A stretch of 64,000 nucleotides of DNA. It comes from a virus. The notes below the pieces were generated by a model, which saw only the letters and a list, made by a program, of their open reading frames with translations, was not told the origin of the DNA and searched no databases. The DNA lies in IMG/VR virus record IMGVR_UViG_3300008111_000005, positions 1 to 64,000 of that record. One strand, given 5' to 3'. Positions 3,908-30,012 of this stretch are shown here, piece by piece; positions within the stretch are counted from its first letter, which is position 1, and every line of letters starts with the position of its first letter. The translations under genes were made by a program, and so were the position numbers.

Positions 3908-3945
3908 AAAACCCCACATGAATTTGTGGGGTTTTTTCTTTTTCT
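3908..3945 (+). terminator. Strong intrinsic terminator
   Basis: AAACCCCACA pairs with TGTGGGGTTT around an ATGAATT-type loop and is followed by a run of T (TTTTTTCTTTTT). It ends the + strand unit. An iteron (3952-3960) lies just beyond. Confidence 0.85.
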
Positions 3946-3951
3946 AAAAAA

Positions 3952-3960
3952 TGATAAAAC
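3952..3960 (+). repeat. Single TGATAAAAC iteron
   Basis: One exact copy of the 9-mer between the terminator and the converging - strand genes. Confidence 0.6.
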
Positions 3961-4006
3961 ACGGGCACACCTTGCCCTAATATTATATTATATAATAAAA
4001 AACTAC

Positions 4007-4186
4007 TTACCCGAAATCAATTTCGCCCCCCAATTGTTCTAGCTCACGAACTACGTCAAGCCGCTCCGATACGGCTTCGAAGATCCAATCATCTATCTGC
4101 TGCCGCTCATCCTTGAGCCGTTGGATGGTGGCGGTCAGCTCATCCCACTGCTCATTGAGCTCTTGTATCTTTTCCATATTAGCCAT
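4007..4186 (-). CDS. Small coiled-coil protein
   Basis: A 59-residue protein read from ATG at 4186 (MANMEKIQEL) or, less likely, from the ATG at 4177. It is almost wholly helical with heptad-like leucines and charged residues (EL, QR, LKDERQQ), so a short coiled coil is likely. Its start overlaps the stop of the upstream - strand gene by 8 bases (ATGGCTAA). No family recognised. The pair converges on the + strand unit. Confidence 0.65.
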   Translation of the reverse strand: MANMEKIQELNEQWDELTATIQRLKDERQQIDDWIFEAVSERLDVVRELEQLGGEIDFG

Positions 4187-4379
4187 TTTCCATAGGGGAA
4201 AGGGATGACACGCGGATCCAATAGTTTTCCAGTCCTGGAATGTTCGACGGGTTCACCACCGCGGCGTTGTGCACGCACGCCATCTGGACACCATTCCATG
4301 TGTCCAGCGCGAGAAGCGTGACGGGCTTCTGAAAGCCCGTGTCCATGAACTGCTTGCCGATATCGTTCGTAGTAATCAT
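4179..4379 (-). CDS. Small hypothetical protein
   Basis: A 66-residue protein beginning MITTNDIGKQF, beta-rich with a central ALDTWNGVQMACVHNAAVV stretch. It begins 8 bases below a perfect copy of the tripartite promoter, so it is very likely expressed. No family recognised. It is the only gene pair in the left 5 kb that reads on the - strand. Confidence 0.65.
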   Translation of the reverse strand: MITTNDIGKQFMDTGFQKPVTLLALDTWNGVQMACVHNAAVVNPSNIPGLENYWIRVSSLSPMENG

Positions 4380-4386
4380 ATACCGT

Positions 4387-4437
4387 AATATACCCTAATA
4401 TTATGAAAACACAAGGGCGGTCACGATTTCGTTACAA
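4387..4437 (-). promoter_or_regulatory. Tripartite promoter, - strand copy
   Basis: On the - strand: TTGTAACG (4437-4430), TTGTGT (4414-4409), 16-bp spacer, TATATT (4392-4387), then ACGGTATA. The block order and spacing match the two + strand copies, which argues that one regulator controls all three units. Confidence 0.75.
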
Positions 4438-4661
4438 ACTAAAAAAATGATAAAACACGCGCCTTCTTCACCCTATATGATCATAATACCAAGCCCCCAC
4501 AATATCAAGCCCTTATATACATTGTTACATTTCTTTCGGTGTTTCTTCGGGCAGCGTGCAGGTTTACATAATCTATATTATATGCACCGAACAAACACCG
4601 AAGCTAATGGGGGCAATGTCATAATGACGGGGCGGACTGTCAATATAACATATTATTAGAC

Positions 4662-4670
4662 TTTTCCACA
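4662..4670 (+). other. DnaA-like box TTTTCCACA
   Basis: TTTTCCACA, a known DnaA-box variant (for example in cyanobacteria), followed by a second partial copy TGTCCACA at 4671-4678. Confidence 0.5.
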
Positions 4671-4741
4671 TGTCCACATTTAGCTCAGTACTAAGGGAAG
4701 CATGTTATTCGGGATTGCTTTCGGTGTCTATACGGGCATGG

Positions 4742-4782
4742 GTTTTATCATCGTTTTATCACGGTTTTATCATTTTTCCACA
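4742..4782 (-). repeat. Three iterons at 11-bp spacing plus DnaA-like box
   Basis: GTTTTATCA (complement of TGATAAAAC) at 4742-4750, 4753-4761 and 4764-4772, each exactly 11 bp apart, then TTTTCCACA at 4774-4782. The iterons would lie on one face of the helix. Confidence 0.8.
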
Positions 4783-5069
4783 GCAATCAGATTTGTGATA
4801 TCTATTCCCCCGTGGCCCGTACGTGGCGACTTGGGCGTATATGGGGCGTGTATAGTATACGATGTGCGGGCCAGGCCCCTATGGCGCAAGGGGAATGGGG
4901 TGAATTTACAAGGCCTAAAAAAATTTGCTTGCGCGGCGAACACACTAGCGCCTTGCTCGGTTCTAATAATACTATGATATTACTATAATATATTATGTAT
5001 AACAATCTATTACTAAATTATTACCTTTTTATTCATACTTCGCGCTCATATTTCCCCATTATCGAAAAA

Positions 5070-5120
5070 TGATAAAACGAACCACAAAAATGATAAAACG
5101 ATTGTAGAAAATGATAAAAC
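5070..5120 (+). repeat. Three iterons at 21-bp spacing
   Basis: TGATAAAAC at 5070-5078, 5091-5099 and 5112-5120, exactly 21 bp apart (two helical turns), each preceded by a run of A. Phasing points to cooperative protein binding. Confidence 0.8.
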
Positions 5121-5178
5121 GGACCTTTCCTATATAGGGTACGATATGAGGTACTTTCTGGTATAATATAGGATATAA

Positions 5179-5216
5179 AGACAAAAACATCATGACTATT
5201 ATCATGATGCTTGTCT
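5179..5216 (-). terminator. Long hairpin at the end of the - strand gene block
   Basis: AGACAA and CATCATGA pair with TCATGATG and TTGTCT in a long, slightly interrupted stem. On the - strand it is followed by TTTATA. It lies about 25 bases beyond the last gene of the - strand block, as expected for its terminator. Confidence 0.6.
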
Positions 5217-5240
5217 ATACCTCTCTTGTATCTATATTAT

Positions 5241-5717
5241 TTATTGTTGGTGTGACCGATAGCTCTTCCTATACTTTACCGGTAATGCCACACTATATTC
5301 TTTCATACCTAATATAAGTTCTTTTTTAGATATGCCTGCATATTTCTTTAAGAGATAGATGTACTTCCCCACGAACCTACTATCATGATAATCATATCCT
5401 AATGCGTGGACCATTTCATGTATAAGGGTTATCATATCTCGTTGGGTAGGCGCTAGCTCTATGGTTTGACGATCACACCAGGAATAATAAAAGTTTTTCC
5501 CACGTGCTTGTGTATGATATATGCCTTTACCAAATCGTATTTCAGGAATTAAATACTTTCCATTTGACTCATTATCCCAGATGAGTTGACCCAAGGTACG
5601 GAGTCTAGTAATAGGTAATTGTTTAATAAATGGTTTATATTCCGGTTGGTAAAAGAACTCGCCCTCGAACTTATACAATCGTCGGGTATTAATCATTTCA
5701 CGATATTGTTTGTCCAT
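5241..5717 (-). CDS. SprT-like zinc metalloprotein
   Basis: A 158-residue protein. Residues 98-111 contain HEMVHALGYDYH: His100, Glu101 and His104 form an HExxH zinc site and His111 is a likely third ligand. This matches small SprT-like or minigluzincin proteins. The N-terminal half is basic and aromatic and may bind DNA or protein. It lacks a clear C-terminal zinc ribbon of full SprT. A protease activity is expected but not shown. It is the last gene of the - strand block. Confidence 0.65.
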   Translation of the reverse strand: MDKQYREMINTRRLYKFEGEFFYQPEYKPFIKQLPITRLRTLGQLIWDNESNGKYLIPEIRFGKGIYHTQARGKNFYYSWCDRQTIELAPTQRDMITLIHEMVHALGYDYHDSRFVGKYIYLLKKYAGISKKELILGMKEYSVALPVKYRKSYRSHQQ

Positions 5718-5811
5718 TCTCTTTTTGCTCCGCTTTCTTACAGAGTTGGTATTGATAGTATACTAACCAATAACCAATTCCTATTGATACTAACCAAGCA
5801 ATTGCCCACAT
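5698..5811 (-). CDS. Tiny membrane protein
   Basis: A 37-residue frame beginning MWAIAWLVSIGIGYWLVYYQ: one transmembrane helix (residues 2-19), then a basic/Gln-rich tail. It overlaps the start of the next gene by 20 bases. An AGAGAA sequence precedes the ATG. Function unknown. Confidence 0.5.
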   Translation of the reverse strand: MWAIAWLVSIGIGYWLVYYQYQLCKKAEQKENGQTIS

Positions 5812-5866
5812 AACATTCTCTATTAATAGGTGTGTTTATATGTATCACCGACCTCTATGATTATAT

Positions 5867-6019
5867 TCATAGATTTCCATCTACATCGTACCATTCAAAC
5901 TTGGTAATCTTTGGCTTCTTATGGGTATACACTTCTTTGTAATCTTTCTGACCTTTCTTATCAGATTTATCGTTTTGCTTCTTTGACCACTTGTTTTTAT
6001 CTTTCCACGTTTTACCCAT
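5867..6019 (-). CDS. Small lysine-rich protein
   Basis: A 50-residue frame, MGKTWKDKNKWSKKQNDKSD onward, with about a third of its residues Lys or Arg, ending FEWYDVDGNL. Such basic phage peptides often bind nucleic acid, but that is inference. The aromatic C-terminus is distinctive. No family recognised. Confidence 0.5.
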   Translation of the reverse strand: MGKTWKDKNKWSKKQNDKSDKKGQKDYKEVYTHKKPKITKFEWYDVDGNL

Positions 6020-6021
6020 AA

Positions 6022-6111
6022 TTAATCCTTGTGACGGCGTTTAAACCACTTACCAATACCCATCAGTAACAGACCAAACCCAAATACAAACAGTCCCCAC
6101 AGTTCGTCCAT
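6022..6111 (-). CDS. Tiny membrane protein
   Basis: A 29-residue frame, MDELWGLFVFGFGLLLMGIG followed by KWFKRRHKD: one transmembrane helix with a basic cytoplasmic tail. It starts 15 bases after the previous gene and ends 2 bases before the next. Function unknown. Confidence 0.5.
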   Translation of the reverse strand: MDELWGLFVFGFGLLLMGIGKWFKRRHKD

Positions 6112-6126
6112 ATTGTCATCGTTCAC

Positions 6127-6333
6127 TTAATTATCCTCGTCGAGCATAAGTTCGTCAGCGGTAAACTCCATTTCATACCCATCGTTATCCAATCGAACAT
6201 AGTATACATACTGACCAATATAATCACGATACTCATCCTCAGTGATTACCCCTGTCTTACCCTCATAGAAATCATCCACGGGTTCACTAATAATAACCTG
6301 CTCACCACGGTTAAACACTGGCGCCTTGGGCAT
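6127..6333 (-). CDS. Small acidic protein, possible SH3/KOW-like fold
   Basis: A 68-residue protein beginning MPKAPVFNRGEQVIISEPVD. The pattern RGEQVIISEP...YEGKTGVITE...YYVRLDNDGYEMEF resembles a KOW/SH3-type beta barrel, as in small phage proteins that bind nucleic acid or ribosomes. The C-terminus is acidic. A sigma70-type promoter lies 31 bases upstream. Confidence 0.65.
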   Translation of the reverse strand: MPKAPVFNRGEQVIISEPVDDFYEGKTGVITEDEYRDYIGQYVYYVRLDNDGYEMEFTADELMLDEDN

Positions 6334-6363
6334 TTGTTTCTCCTTACGGTTAGGGTTACCTGA

Positions 6364-6392
6364 AATATACTACATTGTTAAGTCTTTGTCAA
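6364..6392 (-). promoter_or_regulatory. sigma70-type promoter
   Basis: On the - strand, TTGACA (6392-6387) and TATATT (6369-6364) with a 17-bp spacer. It lies between the genes at 6411 and 6333 and should drive 6333 to 5241. Confidence 0.8.
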
Positions 6393-6410
6393 GAGAACAT
6401 TAAATATGAT

Positions 6411-6653
6411 TTATTTAGGATATACTTCTTCGTGACAATCTCTACATAGCTGACCAGACCCCTGTATATAATACAATCGTTCTTCTATTGGTGTTGATTT
6501 ATTAATAGCTATTATTGTATTACAAGATATACAGCGTTCTGAATTACTTATTGCTTTTACATATTTGTATTTTTGAATTTCAGTGTCACGAATAATATAT
6601 CCGATAAGGAAAACATATGTGACCGCGGTGGCGGCAATTAGTACGGTTATCAT
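6411..6653 (-). CDS. Membrane-anchored zinc-ribbon protein
   Basis: An 80-residue protein with an N-terminal transmembrane helix (MITVLIAATAVTYVFLIGYI) and then two Cys pairs, CISC (about residues 41-44) and CRDC (about 71-74), that can form one zinc site. The His after the second pair (CRDCHEE) could also bind metal. Function unknown. It follows the HExxH gene by 1 base and is probably in its operon. Confidence 0.65.
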   Translation of the reverse strand: MITVLIAATAVTYVFLIGYIIRDTEIQKYKYVKAISNSERCISCNTIIAINKSTPIEERLYYIQGSGQLCRDCHEEVYPK

Positions 6654-6654
6654 A

Positions 6655-7494
6655 TTACAATAAATGCTTTATTTGTTTTGCATCATAAAAGAAATCAGCA
6701 GTCCACTTACTCACACCCAACATTAATCGCTGACCCTGCGGGGTAAACTTACCCACCTTCCACAATTCATCAAGACACTTATCGAATCGTGACCCCCATA
6801 GTTGAGCTTTGTATCGTGACTCACCATTGTCTGGTTCATATTTTAGATTATGAATATGTGTATGTGCCACCCCGAGAAATGATAGGTAGGCGTGTAGTGA
6901 GGCAGACACAGGACGATTGGTAGGTTTGTTACCCACCGCAGGTTGTGCCGTGTTGGCGTAACTGTTTACAATAGACCAACACAATTCACTTTCGTGATTG
7001 AGGATAAACTCTTCTGTGGTAGGAAAGAATGTGTTTGCTCCCGTACCAAATCCCAACGCAACTAACTTCCAGTGCATCAGTTCGTGCACAAGATTAGCTA
7101 ACGCAGCAACGGGATTGTACTGGTCAATTGAAGTCATAATTGCCCATGCCCCAGGATGACCAAATTCATTACCATCGTGTTGACCACTATAATTCTGACC
7201 CACTTCAAGATTAGGAACGATTACATCTACCAATCCACGGACATTATTATATCCCAACGGCCACACTTGCTGATAAATGTTAGCGAACGATTCAAAGTCT
7301 AAGGTTTTAATCGTCTGATAATCTTGTTCAGAACGAGGAACGATTGCAACCTTTCCATGAAACTTTGTCATAGACGACGGATACTCAACAGGAACATATC
7401 CATTGTTCTTTTTAATCTTCGTGAATACATCTATGTCGTAACCATCTTCTTGTGGTTGTAAGATACGACTGTAATCAATATCGTGAAATAACAT
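6655..7494 (-). CDS. HExxH protein, paralogue of the 52.3-53.2 kb gene
   Basis: A 279-residue protein. The centre has LVHELMHWKLVALGFG (HExxH, His137 to His141). The start resembles IDYSRILQPQEDGYDIDVF, matched in the paralogue at 52308-53162. A later block (SIVNSYANTAQPAVG, RPVSASLHAYLSFLG) is also shared. The family may be a zinc or iron protein; I cannot name it. It sits next to a 2OG-Fe(II) oxygenase (7495-8070), transcribed just before it. Confidence 0.65.
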   Translation of the reverse strand: MLFHDIDYSRILQPQEDGYDIDVFTKIKKNNGYVPVEYPSSMTKFHGKVAIVPRSEQDYQTIKTLDFESFANIYQQVWPLGYNNVRGLVDVIVPNLEVGQNYSGQHDGNEFGHPGAWAIMTSIDQYNPVAALANLVHELMHWKLVALGFGTGANTFFPTTEEFILNHESELCWSIVNSYANTAQPAVGNKPTNRPVSASLHAYLSFLGVAHTHIHNLKYEPDNGESRYKAQLWGSRFDKCLDELWKVGKFTPQGQRLMLGVSKWTADFFYDAKQIKHLL

Positions 7495-8166: not shown

Positions 8167-9327
8167 TTAAACGTTAGAAACGAAGTCAGCTTGCTCCCAC
8201 GGTACACTAGCGGTAATGTTGGGGTTCACAAAGTACTTCTGCACCACTTGCCGCATGTACGTGCGTTCCGAATCATTACCACCAGCGGGAGAGAAGAAGG
8301 GATAGACACACGCCTCAGCAGCCTCTGCGAGAGTGAACCCATCATTCAACAGACCAGCCATCTCTACCGTCATACGTGATGAGATAGAAGTAGTAACCTT
8401 TGGATCTTCGCTACGAACCTGCGTACGAGTGTGGTCTGCAATCTCTGCGATTGCACGAAGCGCATCGGGATTAACCTCTGGATACGTCATCGTGAGAAGA
8501 GAAAGTTCATCGTCCCTGTTAAGCGGTTCCATCTCGACCACCGAAGCAAATCGGTCCATCATCGCTCGGTCAAGGACACGGGTGGCGGTGTACTCACTAC
8601 CGATATTTGCCGTAGCGATAAACGTTACACCCCTCGCCACCTTAATCGTCGGCGTGTCTGGCATCTCATCAATGCGAAGGTAACGCTGGTTCTCATCAAG
8701 AACCGTCATCAGAATGTTCCAGGCGTCAGCGTGTCCACGCGTCAGCTCGTCAAGAAGAATGATGGCGTTGTCATCCTGAATTGCCTTGACGAACAGAGCC
8801 TCAGCCACGAACGTACCCTTGTCCTTGCTGAAATGGGTATTACCGATAAGCGTGGAGCGGGGATCCTGTGTAGCGCCGAGGTTGAAGTAGTAGAACCGCC
8901 GGCCATCCAGCACGTTTGCGATAGTCTGTGCGGCGAGAGTCTTACCACAACCAGAAGGACCAGTCATCATAATGTTCTTACCACGAAGTACCGAACGCAT
9001 CAGATATCGCCACTTCAACGAATCCATAATCAGATGCGAGGGCTTGAGAGTTTCACAGTTCTTCAAAAACTCTACCACATCATTTTCCAGTTCATTTTTC
9101 ACATTCTCTACCTTCTTGGAGGGAACCGCAGTCTTGCGGAGAGCATCGTAGTCTGCCATATCAGTATCACGCCACTGCGTACGACCAGTCTTGGTGTTCA
9201 ACATACGGAGTGCAGTACCGTTTGCGTTGGCTCGCTTTCGAGCGTGGAGTGGAATATCAACAGTCATGTCATTGCCATGCTGGTCAATTGCCGTGAGATT
9301 ATCCAGAACCTTTACAAGAGTGGTCAT
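8167..9327 (-). CDS. MoxR-like AAA+ ATPase
   Basis: A 386-residue AAA+ protein. Walker A is GPSGCGKT (residues 123-130), Walker B AIILLDE (about 188-194), then TANIGSEYT and DRFASV sensor/arginine-finger segments typical of MoxR/CbbQ-type ATPases. MoxR proteins act with VWA-domain partners to remodel target complexes. Such a partner lies upstream at 11198-13450. Two unrelated genes lie between, which is unusual for this pair. A promoter lies 44 bases upstream. Confidence 0.85.
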   Translation of the reverse strand: MTTLVKVLDNLTAIDQHGNDMTVDIPLHARKRANANGTALRMLNTKTGRTQWRDTDMADYDALRKTAVPSKKVENVKNELENDVVEFLKNCETLKPSHLIMDSLKWRYLMRSVLRGKNIMMTGPSGCGKTLAAQTIANVLDGRRFYYFNLGATQDPRSTLIGNTHFSKDKGTFVAEALFVKAIQDDNAIILLDELTRGHADAWNILMTVLDENQRYLRIDEMPDTPTIKVARGVTFIATANIGSEYTATRVLDRAMMDRFASVVEMEPLNRDDELSLLTMTYPEVNPDALRAIAEIADHTRTQVRSEDPKVTTSISSRMTVEMAGLLNDGFTLAEAAEACVYPFFSPAGGNDSERTYMRQVVQKYFVNPNITASVPWEQADFVSNV

Positions 9328-24074: not shown

Positions 24075-25304
24075 TTAGAAAATTCTGTATTGTAAATCAG
24101 CGTTGACTGCTTTGTATCCCCACTTTTTAACAGCTGCGTCATATTCTGCTCCGTGGTTACCATCAATTGCTTGACGCATTGCCAATCCACCGGCGAGTGT
24201 ACCCATTGGATGTCCATGCATTGCACCACCAACATTTGCCATCCAGTTATGACTATCAAGTAATCCGTTAATGTGCTGCACCAATCCAGGATGCATTCCA
24301 CAACTGAGTGCGGGGATAACATTGTAGTTCCACAACACCTTCAAGGCGTCTTGTAGTTCTGTGTCATCCTGATTCATATACCCACCAATCATACCTGCGT
24401 GGATAGAGTCTGCACCAGACCACCCTGCAATCTTACAGATAACGGGCCAGTAGATATGATTCGGAGCACGACGGTCAGTGAAGAATTTATCCCCAGACTT
24501 CTGAAAGTGAATCCACAGATTAGGATTCTGTTTACGGATTGCACGATATGCACCCAACCCACTCCACACATTAATATGAACACCCAATCCACCTTCATCC
24601 GAAACGAATTGTGCTCGTTGTAGTGCGTACGGACTGTCACCATTAATACAGAATGTGTACATTACATTCGGGGCGTTATTCGCCAACCAGTTGGTGATAA
24701 GTGGAACTCTCTTTGTCAACGGACAATGTGCCGGACTACCAAGGAGTTCATCTTCTTTAATAAAGTTTACACCACCATATACCATTTCCTTCACGGCTTC
24801 TAACAATACTTCTGGACTCATTCCAACCTTGGGTTTGATAATACCACCGAAGAATGGTTTGCCCTCGACACCATTAAACTTACGGAATCCATCAATACCA
24901 TATGCTGGTTTCAATGTAAACTGTTGTTCAATATGTGCAGGTAGTGTTACGTCCAATACATGACATTGCTCAATTTCCAGAATGTCTACTTGACCACCGG
25001 CGATGTGGCAGAGGATTTGTGAGATACCATCTTCTTCTAAGTCTAGATTTTCTAGTGGAAATGCGATATCAACTTCACCGGAAAACTTCGACTTTAATTC
25101 ATTTTCATCAGCGAGAACAAAACAACTGTGGTCACGAAACATCTGGTCAGTTTCCCATACACTACGATTGTTTGGATTACCGATGCTTTGACCAATTGCC
25201 AAATTCCACGCGGCATCTCGTAGTGAAGTTTTCCCTGCAAGGAAGTACTTAACTATAAAATATTTGGATAAATCAATATCTCTTGTAAAAATATTTACGC
25301 TCAT
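24075..25304 (-). CDS. RuBisCO-like protein (form IV type)
   Basis: A 409-residue protein of the RuBisCO large-subunit superfamily. The metal-site lysine and acids are kept: FIKEDE gives Lys183, Asp185 and Glu186 (RuBisCO Lys201, Asp203, Glu204). The KPK (157-159), His266, His302, Ser334 and a GG (359-360) are also kept. Residues needed for carboxylation of ribulose bisphosphate are lost: the loop-6 Lys is Tyr309, and the usual Arg after His266 is Phe. It is therefore a RuBisCO-like enolase/isomerase-type enzyme, not a true carboxylase. The start overlaps the upstream cupin gene (ATGA). Confidence 0.85.
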   Translation of the reverse strand: MSVNIFTRDIDLSKYFIVKYFLAGKTSLRDAAWNLAIGQSIGNPNNRSVWETDQMFRDHSCFVLADENELKSKFSGEVDIAFPLENLDLEEDGISQILCHIAGGQVDILEIEQCHVLDVTLPAHIEQQFTLKPAYGIDGFRKFNGVEGKPFFGGIIKPKVGMSPEVLLEAVKEMVYGGVNFIKEDELLGSPAHCPLTKRVPLITNWLANNAPNVMYTFCINGDSPYALQRAQFVSDEGGLGVHINVWSGLGAYRAIRKQNPNLWIHFQKSGDKFFTDRRAPNHIYWPVICKIAGWSGADSIHAGMIGGYMNQDDTELQDALKVLWNYNVIPALSCGMHPGLVQHINGLLDSHNWMANVGGAMHGHPMGTLAGGLAMRQAIDGNHGAEYDAAVKKWGYKAVNADLQYRIF

Positions 25305-25633
25305 TGTTTGTCTGTGACCTCGTATTTGTCGCCTATGACGGACGGTAATTTAACAACAATTAATTCACAATCTTCTAAAAATTCTGGGTCTGCTATTTCA
25401 TACGGAAATATAGTAAATATATCTCCTGTTGTCAATAGCTGTCCTTGTATTCGCATCTTGCCACGAATTAAATAGTTAATTTCTATAGCCCTCTTGTGAT
25501 AATGCTTACCCCAGATTTCACCTTTTTTATGACGAAGATATCCGACTTCAAAATCACTGGTCATCAATACGGATGGTGTAAAGTTTCCAATAAACCATCC
25601 ACGAGTCATATCTTCAATTCTTTTTATTTCCAT
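25301..25633 (-). CDS. Cupin-domain protein
   Basis: A 110-residue single cupin. The ATG at 25633 is preferred over the upstream TTG. HKKGEIWGKHYHKRAIEINY holds the first cupin box (His-rich), and GDIFTIFPYEIADPEF the second. Such small cupins can be sugar-phosphate epimerases or isomerases, or metal-binding regulators. It overlaps the gene before (nucleotidyltransferase) by 20 bases and the RuBisCO-like gene after by 4, so it is a core cassette member. Confidence 0.7.
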   Translation of the reverse strand: MEIKRIEDMTRGWFIGNFTPSVLMTSDFEVGYLRHKKGEIWGKHYHKRAIEINYLIRGKMRIQGQLLTTGDIFTIFPYEIADPEFLEDCELIVVKLPSVIGDKYEVTDKQ

Positions 25634-26345
25634 ATAATGCTCTGTATCGTTCAATATCTTCCAAGGTTCCTACTGCATAGTGTTCGGACGGAGTTATATC
25701 GTATACTCGTTTAGTTCCGTCCAGATAGTTGTATGAGGGACCAATATAATATTCACCATTAACAGTGTCTTTCACTTGTTTCATAGTATTCACCGAAGAT
25801 GCGAAATCTTTGCCATACTTCCACCAGTGAATACCATTCAGTGAATAGTTACTAATCACTTCCTTTTCTTTTACCATTGTGAATTTTGGATATTTGTGTT
25901 CTACATTAGCCACCAACGCGTAACTATTTTTAGGCGTGTTAGTTTCGTAGGTCACCACCGCACCAATAGCATCGGTGGTTTTGGTAAACTCAATAAACTT
26001 ATCGGCGTCCCAATGCATGATTTGGTCACAGTTGGTAACTAATAAATCAGTTTCTCCAAAAAATAATTGTGGAGCATGTAACGCCGAAATGGCTGGACCA
26101 TCGGTAAGATAATCAATTTCTACTACAACAGCCTGACCAACGGTTTTACGAATCGCATCACGAAGAGCCACATTCCAATCTTGATTGTTGTATCTACGAA
26201 CAATGAAACAATAATGGCCATCTATGTTCAACGATTCCAATGCCATTTCAATCATAACTTTACCTGGTAATACTTCTACCAGTGGTTTGGGGACCGTGCT
26301 TTTTACACGAGTCCCCTCACCAGCCATTGGAATAATAATATTCAT
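25614..26345 (-). CDS. Sugar-phosphate nucleotidyltransferase 1
   Basis: A 243-residue nucleotidyltransferase. MNIIIPMAGEGTRV...VPKPLVEV is the nucleotide-binding signature (GxGxR...KPL) of GlmU/RfbA/LicC-like enzymes, with LLVTNCDQI providing the metal-binding Asp. It should transfer a nucleotide to a sugar or polyol phosphate. The substrate is not readable. It is one of two such enzymes in the cassette (the other is at 27620). Confidence 0.85.
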   Translation of the reverse strand: MNIIIPMAGEGTRVKSTVPKPLVEVLPGKVMIEMALESLNIDGHYCFIVRRYNNQDWNVALRDAIRKTVGQAVVVEIDYLTDGPAISALHAPQLFFGETDLLVTNCDQIMHWDADKFIEFTKTTDAIGAVVTYETNTPKNSYALVANVEHKYPKFTMVKEKEVISNYSLNGIHWWKYGKDFASSVNTMKQVKDTVNGEYYIGPSYNYLDGTKRVYDITPSEHYAVGTLEDIERYRALYGNKKN

Positions 26346-26349
26346 TTAA

Positions 26350-27243
26350 TCAAGCAACTGTTGAAGTAGTAAACTGTATGTCTGCGTGCTCACCCAATGA
26401 TTCTGCCGACTTGGTACGCATGAATTCTTCATGTAGTGATTGACCCAACTGGTCCATTTGATTGAAGAACTGCTTACTCAAATCAAGATTCTTGTCAGTT
26501 ACTAATGGAGTATAATCTGCTTGTGGGAAGTCAACCACCGAGTATGTATAATTCCAGTATGAAGCAAATTCCTCCCAACGATTTTCTGCATCAATTAAAT
26601 CCCAAACACGACTACCGATTGTTGGTACGGTGTGATAGTAAATAGATCTCTTTAAGCCATCAAGTGTTCTCATACTACCAGCGATAATGTTTTGGTGACG
26701 TTGGATTTGTTGGTTTGCCAAATATTCCAAGTGTGCATCTGCATCAATTCCAACTTCTTCCATACGTCCTGGAATGATACTAGCGAAGAACACACTTTGA
26801 TAACTCAAAGACTTAATGATGGTATTTGCATCAGAAACACCTGTTACATTTAGATATAACTTACGAAGTTCTGGTGCGTCGGCGATTCGAAGTACATAAC
26901 TGAAATGTGGAATCTTCAATGCCATAGCTGCACCATTACCGTTGAACTGGTCAACATATTGTGCCCATCGAATAATATCTTCTTCTTCCATAACTGAATT
27001 AGGGACTTGTACATATACTAATCCTTCTGGACCTTCACCACGAAGTTCTCCAACAAGTGAGGTCATCTGTGGAACAAGTGTTTCAAATTTATCCAATGTA
27101 TCGCAGTTGACCTTTGCCAATGCGTTTGGATTGGTAGTAATACCAATTACGGAACTACCGTCAATATACTTACCCAACTTGTCCCAAATCTTACGGATAT
27201 AGTCGGTGTCTGCTGTGTCAAAAAAGAATGTTGGTTGTGACAT
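26350..27243 (-). CDS. Transaldolase-family enzyme
   Basis: A 297-residue protein. FFFDTADTDYIRKI and GITTNPNALAK (residues 36-40 TNPN) are hallmarks of the transaldolase family; MALKIP holds Lys110, the expected Schiff-base lysine. The family joins or splits sugar phosphates by aldol chemistry (sedoheptulose/fructose/fructose-6-P). In this cassette it could extend the C4 product of the adjacent DHBP synthase or a RuBisCO-like-protein product, which is inference. Its start overlaps the HAD phosphatase gene as TAATG. Confidence 0.8.
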   Translation of the reverse strand: MSQPTFFFDTADTDYIRKIWDKLGKYIDGSSVIGITTNPNALAKVNCDTLDKFETLVPQMTSLVGELRGEGPEGLVYVQVPNSVMEEEDIIRWAQYVDQFNGNGAAMALKIPHFSYVLRIADAPELRKLYLNVTGVSDANTIIKSLSYQSVFFASIIPGRMEEVGIDADAHLEYLANQQIQRHQNIIAGSMRTLDGLKRSIYYHTVPTIGSRVWDLIDAENRWEEFASYWNYTYSVVDFPQADYTPLVTDKNLDLSKQFFNQMDQLGQSLHEEFMRTKSAESLGEHADIQFTTSTVA

Positions 27244-27623
27244 TATGGATTCTCCACGGTTCTTGGTCCTTTGTTTATTCTATCTTTTATTGCTAAGATT
27301 GAGGTTTCCCAATCTGTATGTCTGTGTACCGCATCATCTATTATTAAATCGGCGTGAGGTTTACTCCACCAAATTTCATCATATGGAATATCCCATTTTT
27401 CTAACCAATCAAACAATACTTTACCTTGTAACTTTAATACCCTTCCTTGATTCCCACCACCAGTTTTCATATGTCGTGCCGTATGAAGAATAATGGTGTG
27501 CCCTTCTTCTTTTAACCATCGTAACGTTTCTAATGCTTCTGGAAACGGCTTGACATCTGCGTAGGTCATATCACCAGTTTTATTTTCACAGATAGTATTA
27601 TCTATATCAAAACAAAATATCAT
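27243..27623 (-). CDS. HAD-family phosphatase (capsule-biosynthesis type)
   Basis: A 126-residue small HAD enzyme. FDIDNTI gives the catalytic Asp6 and general acid Asp8, TGDMTYADVKPFPEAL and HTARHMKTGGG give motif II, ADLIIDDAVH the acidic end motif. It removes a phosphate from a small phosphorylated compound. Such HADs typically lie next to nucleotidyltransferases in surface-sugar gene clusters. It overlaps both neighbours (ATGA upstream, TAATG downstream). Confidence 0.8.
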   Translation of the reverse strand: MIFCFDIDNTICENKTGDMTYADVKPFPEALETLRWLKEEGHTIILHTARHMKTGGGNQGRVLKLQGKVLFDWLEKWDIPYDEIWWSKPHADLIIDDAVHRHTDWETSILAIKDRINKGPRTVENP

Positions 27624-28390
27624 AATGTACCCTCAAAGGCTTTTACATCTGCTGGTGTACCAAGAGGTACAACATCAGTAACGGTATGTACATATACTGG
27701 AATCCCTATACTCACATTATACGAGGCCACCATACTCATATAATACTCTGCGTTTCCATTAAACTCAACTGGTTTGTTAAATTCCATAATAAACTTTGCA
27801 TAGTTTGTAAAGAATTGTGTTTGACCAAAGTAGAATATACCAATCATCGTAGGATGGTGAACCCACGAATCATTCTTCTCACGAATACCCACAGCCTTTC
27901 CATCTTCAATTATAACGTTCGACCATTTATTGGGTAGTGATTTGTCTGGATTATCAAAGCATGCTACTGCGACTGCATTACTCTTAAATTTAATACCACG
28001 AATAAAATCATCAACACCATTATGATTATATTTGTTATCGGAATCAAGAACCAATAAGTCATCAGTTTTGTGCCACATACGAGATGCTGCTTGTCTTGCG
28101 GTGTCTAAACTTCCCGAAGTAATTTCTTTAAACGGAATGATTTCTATGTTACGACCGTAAATGGAATATAAAAATTTATCCAATCCAGCATCCAAATGTT
28201 CTTGCAAAACTGCAAAATATAAATGAATGTTACTCGACTGTCCCTTTCCATCGTGACGAATATATGGACATGATTCCGTTGTCCATTGTAAGATTGTCTT
28301 ACCATTTATTTGAATTAATGGTTTGGGGTCTTTGTATCCTTCGTTTACAAAACGTTGACCCCTACCAGCCATTAACACTAAGACGTTCAT
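27620..28390 (-). CDS. Sugar-phosphate nucleotidyltransferase 2
   Basis: A 256-residue enzyme of the same family as the one at 25614. MNVLVLMAGRGQRFVNEGY with KDPKPLI is the nucleotide-binding signature; DLLVLDSDNKYN supplies the metal-binding acids. Two nucleotidyltransferases in one operon suggest two activated precursors or sequential steps. It overlaps the kinase gene (ATGA). Confidence 0.85.
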   Translation of the reverse strand: MNVLVLMAGRGQRFVNEGYKDPKPLIQINGKTILQWTTESCPYIRHDGKGQSSNIHLYFAVLQEHLDAGLDKFLYSIYGRNIEIIPFKEITSGSLDTARQAASRMWHKTDDLLVLDSDNKYNHNGVDDFIRGIKFKSNAVAVACFDNPDKSLPNKWSNVIIEDGKAVGIREKNDSWVHHPTMIGIFYFGQTQFFTNYAKFIMEFNKPVEFNGNAEYYMSMVASYNVSIGIPVYVHTVTDVVPLGTPADVKAFEGTL

Positions 28391-29373
28391 AATTCCAATG
28401 CCTCGTTTAATAATCTTATACCTGTGAGGTACATTGCTCGTTGTCTTTCCAGACTATCATAATGACGAGCACACATCCCAATAAAGATGCAGCCTTGGAT
28501 AATTTTTATTTCCTTCTTATTAAACATTGGAAAGAAAATATATTCAAACTCATTCAATGCCCAATCAAGTTCACCGTCATTCTTAATGTCCAATTGATAC
28601 GCATTGCCATTTGCTGTAACCTTAAACTTATCAGTAATAAATGCTTCATACGTTCCATCCAATGAATGATATAGTTTAGCTATATCGTATCGAATATCAC
28701 CGTAATTTCCAAGTTTACCAAATGAACCACGAGGATCTATGAAACGAATAATATTTTTATCTTCACCATATAAAATATTACTAAAACAACAATCACCGTG
28801 TATAAGTGATGGAGTAAAAGTTAACATATTTTGTTCGATGTAATTCTTAATCTGTGGCCAGACTACTTCGAACATGGAGTATTGTTTATTGTTAATGTAT
28901 ACTGAATGTGCACGAACTTGGTCAATAAACAACGAATCAAACTTATCGTGCCACCCAGAATAAAAATTACGGTACTCACGTTCTGTTTTTGTGATGTACA
29001 TATCGTACGCTGCATTACGAATTTCTTCGTCAGTCCACTTAACTCGTGGACTGATGTTAGACCACGACACAAGAATGTTTCGTAAATTAAGGAAAAATTC
29101 AGACCACGACGGCATAATTTTGTCACCAAACAAATAATTACCAACGTTTGGATAACTATACAATTCCAAATCCATCCAAAAGTCTGCTATTAACGGTTCT
29201 ACGTGATCGAGTAATCTTGGAAAAAATACTGCTTGTGATGGATGATACTTTTGTAATTTTACATAATATAATATCTCATCACGGAGTCGTTCGGTGGAAC
29301 TTAATTTCCGAACAACTCCTCGCGTTTCATCTACTTCAAATCTATTGTATGCTCGTGTGACTAATTTTTCCAT
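28387..29373 (-). CDS. Aminoglycoside/choline-kinase-like phosphotransferase
   Basis: A 328-residue kinase-like protein. SLIHGDCCFSNILYGED gives the catalytic HGDxxxxN motif and IIRFIDPRGSFG the Mg-binding DPRG, as in APH/choline kinase enzymes. It probably phosphorylates a sugar, polyol or amino alcohol that the nucleotidyltransferases then activate. It overlaps nucleotidyltransferase 2 and lies just downstream of ribB. Confidence 0.75.
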   Translation of the reverse strand: MEKLVTRAYNRFEVDETRGVVRKLSSTERLRDEILYYVKLQKYHPSQAVFFPRLLDHVEPLIADFWMDLELYSYPNVGNYLFGDKIMPSWSEFFLNLRNILVSWSNISPRVKWTDEEIRNAAYDMYITKTEREYRNFYSGWHDKFDSLFIDQVRAHSVYINNKQYSMFEVVWPQIKNYIEQNMLTFTPSLIHGDCCFSNILYGEDKNIIRFIDPRGSFGKLGNYGDIRYDIAKLYHSLDGTYEAFITDKFKVTANGNAYQLDIKNDGELDWALNEFEYIFFPMFNKKEIKIIQGCIFIGMCARHYDSLERQRAMYLTGIRLLNEALEL

Positions 29374-29376
29374 AAA

Positions 29377-30012
29377 TCATCCCACTTGGAATGGTGGTTC
29401 CCATCCTGTTTCGTTACAATATTCAATGACTTCATCAATAGAAATCGTATTCAATGCCCATCGTTCTGCGTAGGGAATGAGGTCTGGGACTCGTGCCATA
29501 CTACCATCATCATTCATAATCTCACAGATGATTGCAACTGGTTTCGTTCCAGCCATCATAGCAAGTTGAACAGATGCTTCGGTATGACCCTGCCGTTCCT
29601 TCAACAAACCAGGACGGGGACGGAGTGGAAACAAGTGACCTGGGTATGCAAGTTGTTCTGGTTTGGTATTTTCATCTAGTACCAATCCAATCGTGACCAT
29701 ACGATCTTCTACACTTACACCAGTAGTGACACCATCACGTGCGTCAATACTGACGGTGAATGGAGTCGAAAACTTATCGTTATTGTTAGATGGACTCATA
29801 GGAATTTCTAAACGATCTAACATAAACTTTGGTGTAGGAATACACATGATACCTCGTGCTTCCTTTGCGATAAAAGCCAGTGTTTCTGGTGTTGCTTTTT
29901 CCGCTGCAATCATCAAGTCACCTTCATTTTCTCTATCGTAACTATCTACGACGATGATTGGTTTTCCGTTGCGGATATCTTCTAATACTGTTTTAATTTT
30001 TTCTGATAACAT
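29377..30012 (-). CDS. ribB: 3,4-dihydroxy-2-butanone 4-phosphate synthase
   Basis: A 211-residue RibB. It makes L-3,4-dihydroxy-2-butanone 4-phosphate and formate from ribulose 5-phosphate. DRENEGD (residues 26-32), FTVSIDARDGVTTGVS, GHTEASVQLA and CEIMNDDGSMAR are the conserved active-site blocks, so the enzyme looks intact. No other riboflavin gene (ribA, ribD, ribE, ribH) is here, unlike a riboflavin operon. I infer that its C4 product feeds the sugar cassette; riboflavin supply to the host is the alternative. Confidence 0.85.
   Translation of the reverse strand: MLSEKIKTVLEDIRNGKPIIVVDSYDRENEGDLMIAAEKATPETLAFIAKEARGIMCIPTPKFMLDRLEIPMSPSNNNDKFSTPFTVSIDARDGVTTGVSVEDRMVTIGLVLDENTKPEQLAYPGHLFPLRPRPGLLKERQGHTEASVQLAMMAGTKPVAIICEIMNDDGSMARVPDLIPYAERWALNTISIDEVIEYCNETGWEPPFQVG

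Follow-up and report, generated by a model that had tools for sequence, protein, structure and literature searches.

What does a virus do with a RuBisCO-like protein (RLP) encoded in a tightly packed run of genes for sugar-phosphate and nucleotide-transfer enzymes? The question is raised by IMGVR_UViG_3300008111_000005, a 104,871-base viral contig that also encodes a DNA polymerase, clamp loader, DNA ligase, and virion structural proteins. The stretch analyzed is a 64,000-nt window of this record (the window; positions refer to it unless another record is named). Eight open reading frames (ORFs) on its minus strand, at 24075-30012, encode in transcription order RibB, an APH/choline-kinase-like sugar kinase (APH), a nucleotidyltransferase (NTP2), a HAD phosphatase, a transaldolase-like protein, a second nucleotidyltransferase (NTP1), a small cupin, and the RLP. 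An earlier note on this DNA had read these mostly overlapping genes as one pathway to an activated surface sugar. The ORF positions and spacing bear out the genes, their order, strand, coordinates, and overlaps, but a single eight-gene pathway is unsupported, since the RLP is found in dozens of contigs lacking RibB, transaldolase, APH, and HAD, and these are found without the RLP.

The eight genes are two separate modules, both carried by many aquatic phages, which happen to be neighbors in the lineage of the window (five IMG/VR contigs): module A, RibB-APH-NTP-HAD-transaldolase, and module B, NTP-cupin-RLP(-GDPD), with a GDPD-like protein as the usual fourth member. RibB, APH, NTP2, HAD, and transaldolase occur together beside the RLP only in L001-L005, near relatives of the window (RLP identity 88-100%). 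Scanning for the RLP gave at least 88 stretches in IMG/VR and none among 50,697 phage isolate records. In 57 representatives (relatives with RLP identity below 92%), the cupin gene is directly upstream of the RLP in 45, NTP, cupin, and RLP are consecutive in 41, and NTP and cupin are both near the RLP in 51. The GDPD-like gene is near the RLP in 47/57 and directly downstream in 25/57; a search of the whole window record did not find it there. Module B also stands on its own, apart from the five genes of module A, across dozens of diverse phage contigs, in SAR11, and in Azospirillum oleiclasticum. Conservation in other contigs, to which the earlier note had looked, thus holds for each half as a unit and not for the eight genes, which are scattered in relatives, an outcome the note itself had named as speaking against its reading.

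In the data searched, most carriers of the RLP clade are phages. Among species genomes, a scan picked up the RLP in 11 bacterial contigs, from SAR11, an alphaproteobacterium, a Crocinitomicaceae metagenome-assembled genome (MAG), a Patescibacteria MAG, and A. oleiclasticum, a cultured soil bacterium. The A. oleiclasticum contig carries GDPD (3936-4403), RLP (4396-5643), cupin (5647-5958), and NTP (6018-6704) in a row, and the completeness of this set at an RLP identity of just 36% favors an old functional unit. The RLP is rare in SAR11 (2/297 genomes at E 1e-60). Some of the bacterial RLP contigs may be of phage origin; in the longer SAR11 contigs and the Azospirillum contig, host-type genes surround the RLP. 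A variant of module B is seen in SAR11 loci L096-L099, with GDPD-like, NTP, RLP, and second NTP genes in a row, no cupin found, and HflK/HflC-looking genes alongside.

Module A is conserved in three arrangements, that of the window being one. In Synechococcus phage S-SKS1 (SWZG_00042-00039), NTP and RibB are fused as one protein, followed by APH, HAD, and transaldolase; identities to the window are 52% for the RibB part, 39% for APH, 47% for HAD, and 37% for transaldolase, the module stands there without a cupin, and the RLP is absent from the 208-kb genome. The S-SKS1 order recurs in 10 further IMG/VR contigs, the stretch read of each being free of RLP, cupin, and GDPD-like genes. In the third arrangement, G001 (L147, L238), an unfused RibB precedes APH-transaldolase-HAD, an S-SKS1-type NTP lies some kilobases on, and there is no RLP. 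A RibB match in Staphylococcus phage UPMK_1 was set aside as not comparable, because it sits in a riboflavin operon beside host-type genes; this stretch of the UPMK_1 record (L083:4320-7659) is perhaps host DNA in the assembly.

The strongest pointer to what the RLP might do comes from the genes that take its place. The same cupin occurs in Synechococcus phages Bellamy and SynMITS9220M01, where it comes after a protein with an N-terminal half of this NTP family and a C-terminal half that is ribose-5-phosphate isomerase B (RpiB; PF02502 E 4e-32 in Bellamy). Among 30 IMG/VR contigs with an NTP-RpiB fusion, the cupin is present in 29 and the GDPD-like gene in 26, and the RLP in none; nor was the RLP found in any of 32 whole sister records, three cyanophage genomes among them. 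Conversely, RpiB occurs in 2/49 RLP records, unfused in both. The RLP and RpiB are therefore nearly mutually exclusive in sister operons. A cupin-led scan (541 relatives) added 79 best loci, of which 69 have RpiB; five of the 10 that lack it were read and have, by eye from motifs, a KdsC-like HAD and a PfkB-like kinase ahead of the NTP. The constant part of these operons is NTP, cupin, and GDPD-like protein, and the exchangeable part is the RLP, the RpiB fusion, or kinase plus HAD.

Further fusions were seen around these genes. Another cyanophage sugar module, next to the GDPD-like gene in Synechococcus phages S-SM2 (L104:969-4696) and Bellamy (L102:10060-13362), lines up a double-NTP fusion with a GT61 protein, class II aldolase, and HAD phosphatase. 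A HAD-NTP fusion (~457 aa) accompanies the GDPD-like gene in cyanophages B23, S-CAM9, and DSL-LC03 (L103:4631-6004, L105:2299-3684, L106:1782-3167). A HAD-NTP fusion also directly precedes cupin-RLP in L025:8301-9674.

The RLP of the window (24075..25304, 409 aa) scores 115.8 bits against PF00016, above the gathering score of 30.1, and its AlphaFold2 (AF2) model (pLDDT 87) is RuBisCO-like, with a Foldseek TM of 0.80-0.83 to 2d69; a BFVD structure search with this model returned no viral protein of RuBisCO fold. Residues were compared between a 23-member RLP alignment and solved RuBisCOs, for which spinach numbering is used. The carbamate lysine and metal ligands K183, D185, and E186 (K201, D203, and E204), together with K157 (K175), are invariant in the 23 sequences, and equivalents of K177, H327, S379, and the phosphate-site (P1) glycines are also kept. 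Carboxylation and P1 residues, in contrast, are replaced in all or nearly all members (E60 by G38, T65/W66 by N43/P44, N123 by G104, H294 by Q268, and K334 by Y309), and R295 is replaced by K269. Retention of the carbamate and metal set with loss of the carboxylase set is the pattern of an enolising RLP. Judged by its fold and its PF00016 match without carboxylase residues, the protein classifies as a form IV-like member of the RuBisCO superfamily. In a quick tree with few references, the family members group as a single clade (99 SH-aLRT), distinct from OiaX-type RLPs and from form I RuBisCO. Where the function of an RLP is known, it is to enolise or isomerise a pentulose phosphate (PMC5893883).

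From gene content, conservation, fusions, module independence, and residue conservation, which are observed, we infer every reaction, the step order, the nucleotide, and the end use of the following proposal, to which we give an even chance: two adjoining nucleotide-sugar modules, with the RLP as an enolising isomerase/epimerase in RpiB's place, whose products decorate surface glycans. That RpiB is fused to the NTP where the RLP is absent, among the same NTP, cupin, and GDPD-like genes, is the reason for assigning the RLP this type of reaction. Module B would yield a nucleotide-activated, probably cytidine diphosphate (CDP)-linked, pentose or pentulose derivative: the RLP, as a carbamate-metal-dependent enolising isomerase/epimerase, would work on a pentulose phosphate, either free or nucleotide-linked, the cupin would carry out a further metal-dependent isomerisation or elimination, and the NTP would activate the product. 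RibB enzymes convert ribulose 5-phosphate to 3,4-dihydroxy-2-butanone 4-phosphate (DHBP) and formate. In module A, RibB would supply DHBP, a C4 methyl ketone phosphate, from ribulose 5-phosphate, an aldolase of the fructose-6-phosphate aldolase (FSA) type would then build a sugar phosphate, to be activated by kinase, phosphatase, and NTP along the lines of the heptose pathway, which runs through a 1-kinase, a terminal phosphatase, and a nucleotidyltransferase. Neighboring glycosyltransferases would use the products of both modules on virion or host surface glycans. The earlier suggestion that C4/C5 sugar-phosphate enzymes feed nucleotide activation inside glycosyltransferase blocks finds support in the NTP-RibB fusion of S-SKS1 and the NTP-RpiB fusions of Bellamy and relatives. 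We regard it as a doubtful, more specific possibility that the RLP acts directly on a nucleotide-linked pentulose (e.g. CDP-5-ribulose), with the cupin and the short GDPD-like phosphodiesterase, to give an undescribed activated sugar; we know of no RuBisCO relative with a biosynthetic role on a nucleotide-linked pentulose.

Several observations weigh against this proposal. The PfkB plus HAD version shows that different chemistry is possible in the exchangeable slot, so sharing it need not mean sharing a reaction. The substrate loops of the RLP (NPN in place of TWT, QKSGD in place of HRAMH) are unlike those of RuBisCO, and its substrate may therefore be quite different. In the NTP tree, a quick tree with long branches, RLP-linked and RpiB-linked NTPs fall on different branches, and the RibB-fused NTP of S-SKS1 groups with NTP1-type rather than NTP2-type proteins, which leaves position as the sole basis for assigning NTP2 to module A. 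Since RibB-fused NTPs share a branch with RLP-linked NTPs, the modules may use related substrates, and this, together with how the genes are ordered and tightly overlapped in the window and in L001-L005, speaks for a single integrated pathway in which ribulose 5-phosphate passes through RibB, transaldolase, and RLP in turn and the kinase, phosphatase, and NTPs activate the product. Such a pathway is nevertheless improbable given the dozens of contigs with the RLP module alone, the other five genes without the RLP in S-SKS1, the 10 contigs, and G001, and the extra genes that separate RibB from APH in L003 and L005.

The remaining alternatives concern the chemistry of the RLP. In one, the RLP slot supplies different substrates, and the RLP product is not an isomer but a sugar phosphate, branched or oxo, formed through decarboxylation, transcarboxylation, or aldol-like chemistry in the manner of OiaX with 3-oxo-isoapionate-4-P. 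This would fit the ranking of OiaX as third-best NCBIfam match, and the kinase plus HAD found in the slot of some contigs means that the same reaction is not required there. We consider this unlikely, because the RLP reaches 115 bits against a curated OiaX cutoff of 700, lies outside the clade of OiaX and four-carbon-acid-sugar-kinase RLPs, and has neither an oxidoreductase nor an acid-sugar kinase as a constant partner in module B. A methionine-salvage-like role, with RLP and cupin as methylthioribulose-1-P isomerase and methylsulfurylase as in the MTA-isoprenoid shunt of Rhodospirillum rubrum, is very improbable: the RLP and cupin pairing is the same in kind (PMC5893883), but the MtnA family is absent from 11/11 viral RLP records tested, which indicates that the R. 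rubrum pathway is not meant for the phage RLP. The RpiB fusion, NTP, and GDPD-like partners also misfit, the curated cutoffs for MtnW, the 2,3-diketo-5-methylthiopentyl-1-phosphate (DK-MTP-1-P) enolase, are missed (71-95 vs 409-514 bits), and the cupin resembles phosphomannose isomerase and KdgF cupins. The least likely reading is a CO2-fixing RuBisCO carried as an auxiliary metabolic gene. The PF00016 match and RuBisCO fold would suit it, and viral rbcL-like genes were listed under CO2 fixation in a study of a landfill virome (PMC12607003), but the equivalents of E60, T65/W66, N123, H294, and K334 are replaced and the type III RuBisCO curated cutoff is missed (153 vs 497 bits). We rejected a carboxylase role on the replaced residues and regard this explanation as almost certainly wrong.

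All eight family assignments of the earlier note hold, those of RibB and the RLP above score cutoffs and the other six on weaker but supportive evidence. RibB (3,4-dihydroxy-2-butanone 4-phosphate synthase; 29377..30012, 211 aa, module A) scores 214.6 bits against TIGR00506 (curated cutoff 177.5). The partners expected for riboflavin making, GTP cyclohydrolase II, lumazine synthase, and riboflavin synthase (PF00925, PF00885, PF00677), are missing from the 104,871-base record, which may be a fragment, under searches that detected the positive controls; riboflavin making is unlikely and was rejected as the aim on these grounds, in line with the note. The transaldolase/fructose-6-phosphate-aldolase-like protein (26350..27243, 297 aa, module A) falls below the PF00923 gathering score (17.7 vs 27 bits) and matches solved transaldolases by profile (E 6e-9 to 3r8r), with the Schiff-base lysine K110, the catalytic D9, and the phosphate-binding R160, S190, and R192 all invariant in the alignment; it is best classed as a divergent relative of transaldolase/FSA. 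FSA has glutamine and transaldolases have glutamate at the position of its Q79, a hint that it may work as an aldolase.

In the APH-like kinase (28387..29373, 328 aa, module A), the HGD....N and DP motifs are intact and invariant; no solved relatives were found for it or for NTP2. The EcbF/BcbF-like HAD phosphatase (27243..27623, 126 aa, module A) scores 61.7 bits against TIGR01689, under the curated cutoff of 162, and is classed as a HAD relative only, the score for EcbF/BcbF capsule phosphatase not being reached. NTP1 (25614..26345, 243 aa, module B), of the family of NTP domains fused to RpiB or RibB in cyanophages, and NTP2 (27620..28390, 256 aa, probably module A), which branches off deeply on its own in the NTP tree, match phrog_3980 (E 1e-37 and 2e-28); the nearest solved protein to the family is 4evw (E 4e-30). 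The cupin (25301..25654, module B; 117 aa from TTG, with an alternative ATG at 25633) matches phrog_24762 (E 1.5e-35), has an AF2 model of pLDDT 93, and is of metal-binding type, with H51, H53, and E58 invariant. In the GDPD-like protein (~149 aa), the HRG, E, E.D, and HD motifs are invariant in 15 sequences, and 3i10 is a solved relative (E 2.8e-5).

The eight ORFs are real genes under purifying selection, as dN/dS against relatives L003 and L005 is 0.03-0.16 in 15/15 computable comparisons, one further comparison being saturated. From RibB to RLP, successive genes are spaced by +3, -4, -4, -1, +4, -41, and -4 bases, the NTP1/cupin overlap of -41 from the TTG becoming -20 if the cupin starts at the internal ATG. 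The eight are not a self-contained unit: the close-packed same-strand run extends beyond them on both flanks, and genes are inserted between RibB and APH in relatives (228 aa in L005, 113 aa in L003). The L003 insert (L003:5635-5976) is a protein of ~20-residue repeats of the 'YKG...GSP...DN' type. Elsewhere in the window, 8167-9327 encodes an ATPase with a match to phrog_249, the 'porphyrin biosynthesis' (CobS-like) family of phages.

These results place an RLP clade without an assigned function in a largely fixed, mainly phage-borne operon and give it a testable function; the exchange with RpiB provides a concrete and cheap test of the RLP reaction, and the cultured A. oleiclasticum carries the full four-gene set. 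If the proposal is true, a RuBisCO relative has a role in nucleotide-sugar biosynthesis, to our knowledge the first. The results also correct a likely misreading, since viral rbcL-like genes that carry a CO2-fixation label may have their role in making glycans instead. The IV-GOS RuBisCO-like clade (Tabita 2007) reportedly consists of marine metagenomic RuBisCO homologs of unknown function. The GOS data contain unplaced novel RuBisCO groups (PMC1821046), and the phage RLP family may be the same clade as IV-GOS and these groups. A literature search, with most subscription journals outside its reach, found no paper describing the phage RLP operon, and viral rbcL-like genes appear there only as listed auxiliary genes (PMC12607003).

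Among known systems, the row of module A homologs in S-SKS1 differs from the window by its NTP/RibB fusion and missing RLP. The ADP/GDP-heptose pathway (GmhA-HddA-GmhB-HddC) resembles module A in applying a kinase, a HAD phosphatase, and an NTP to a sugar phosphate from pentose-phosphate-type enzymes; in module A, an APH-fold kinase, RibB, and an FSA-like aldolase replace the heptose kinase and sedoheptulose-7-P isomerase. Module B resembles rlp1 of Rhodospirillum rubrum and Rhodopseudomonas palustris (DeepYkr clade), where the RLP also has a cupin partner and isomerises a pentulose phosphate; the R. rubrum enzyme makes 1-methylthio-xylulose-5-P, and the cupin is the next enzyme (PMC5893883). 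No NTP, GDPD-like, or RpiB partner is described for that pair, whereas the phage records are without MtnA and the phage RLP falls short of the curated cutoffs for the named RLP families; module B is not classed with this system. In CDP-ribitol synthesis and the CDP-6-D-glucitol/CDP-mannitol pathway (Campylobacter HS:5, pneumococcus 35A; PMC10918830), a cytidylyltransferase acts on the terminal phosphate of a ketose or polyol phosphate for surface glycans. The glucitol/mannitol pathway differs in using a reductase and no RLP, RpiB, or cupin, and, by sequence, NTP1 lies closer to 4evw than to enzymes of the IspD type. For fructose-6-P, activation with CTP at the terminal phosphate has been described (PMC10918830), and the pathway provides a precedent for how the NTP step could work.

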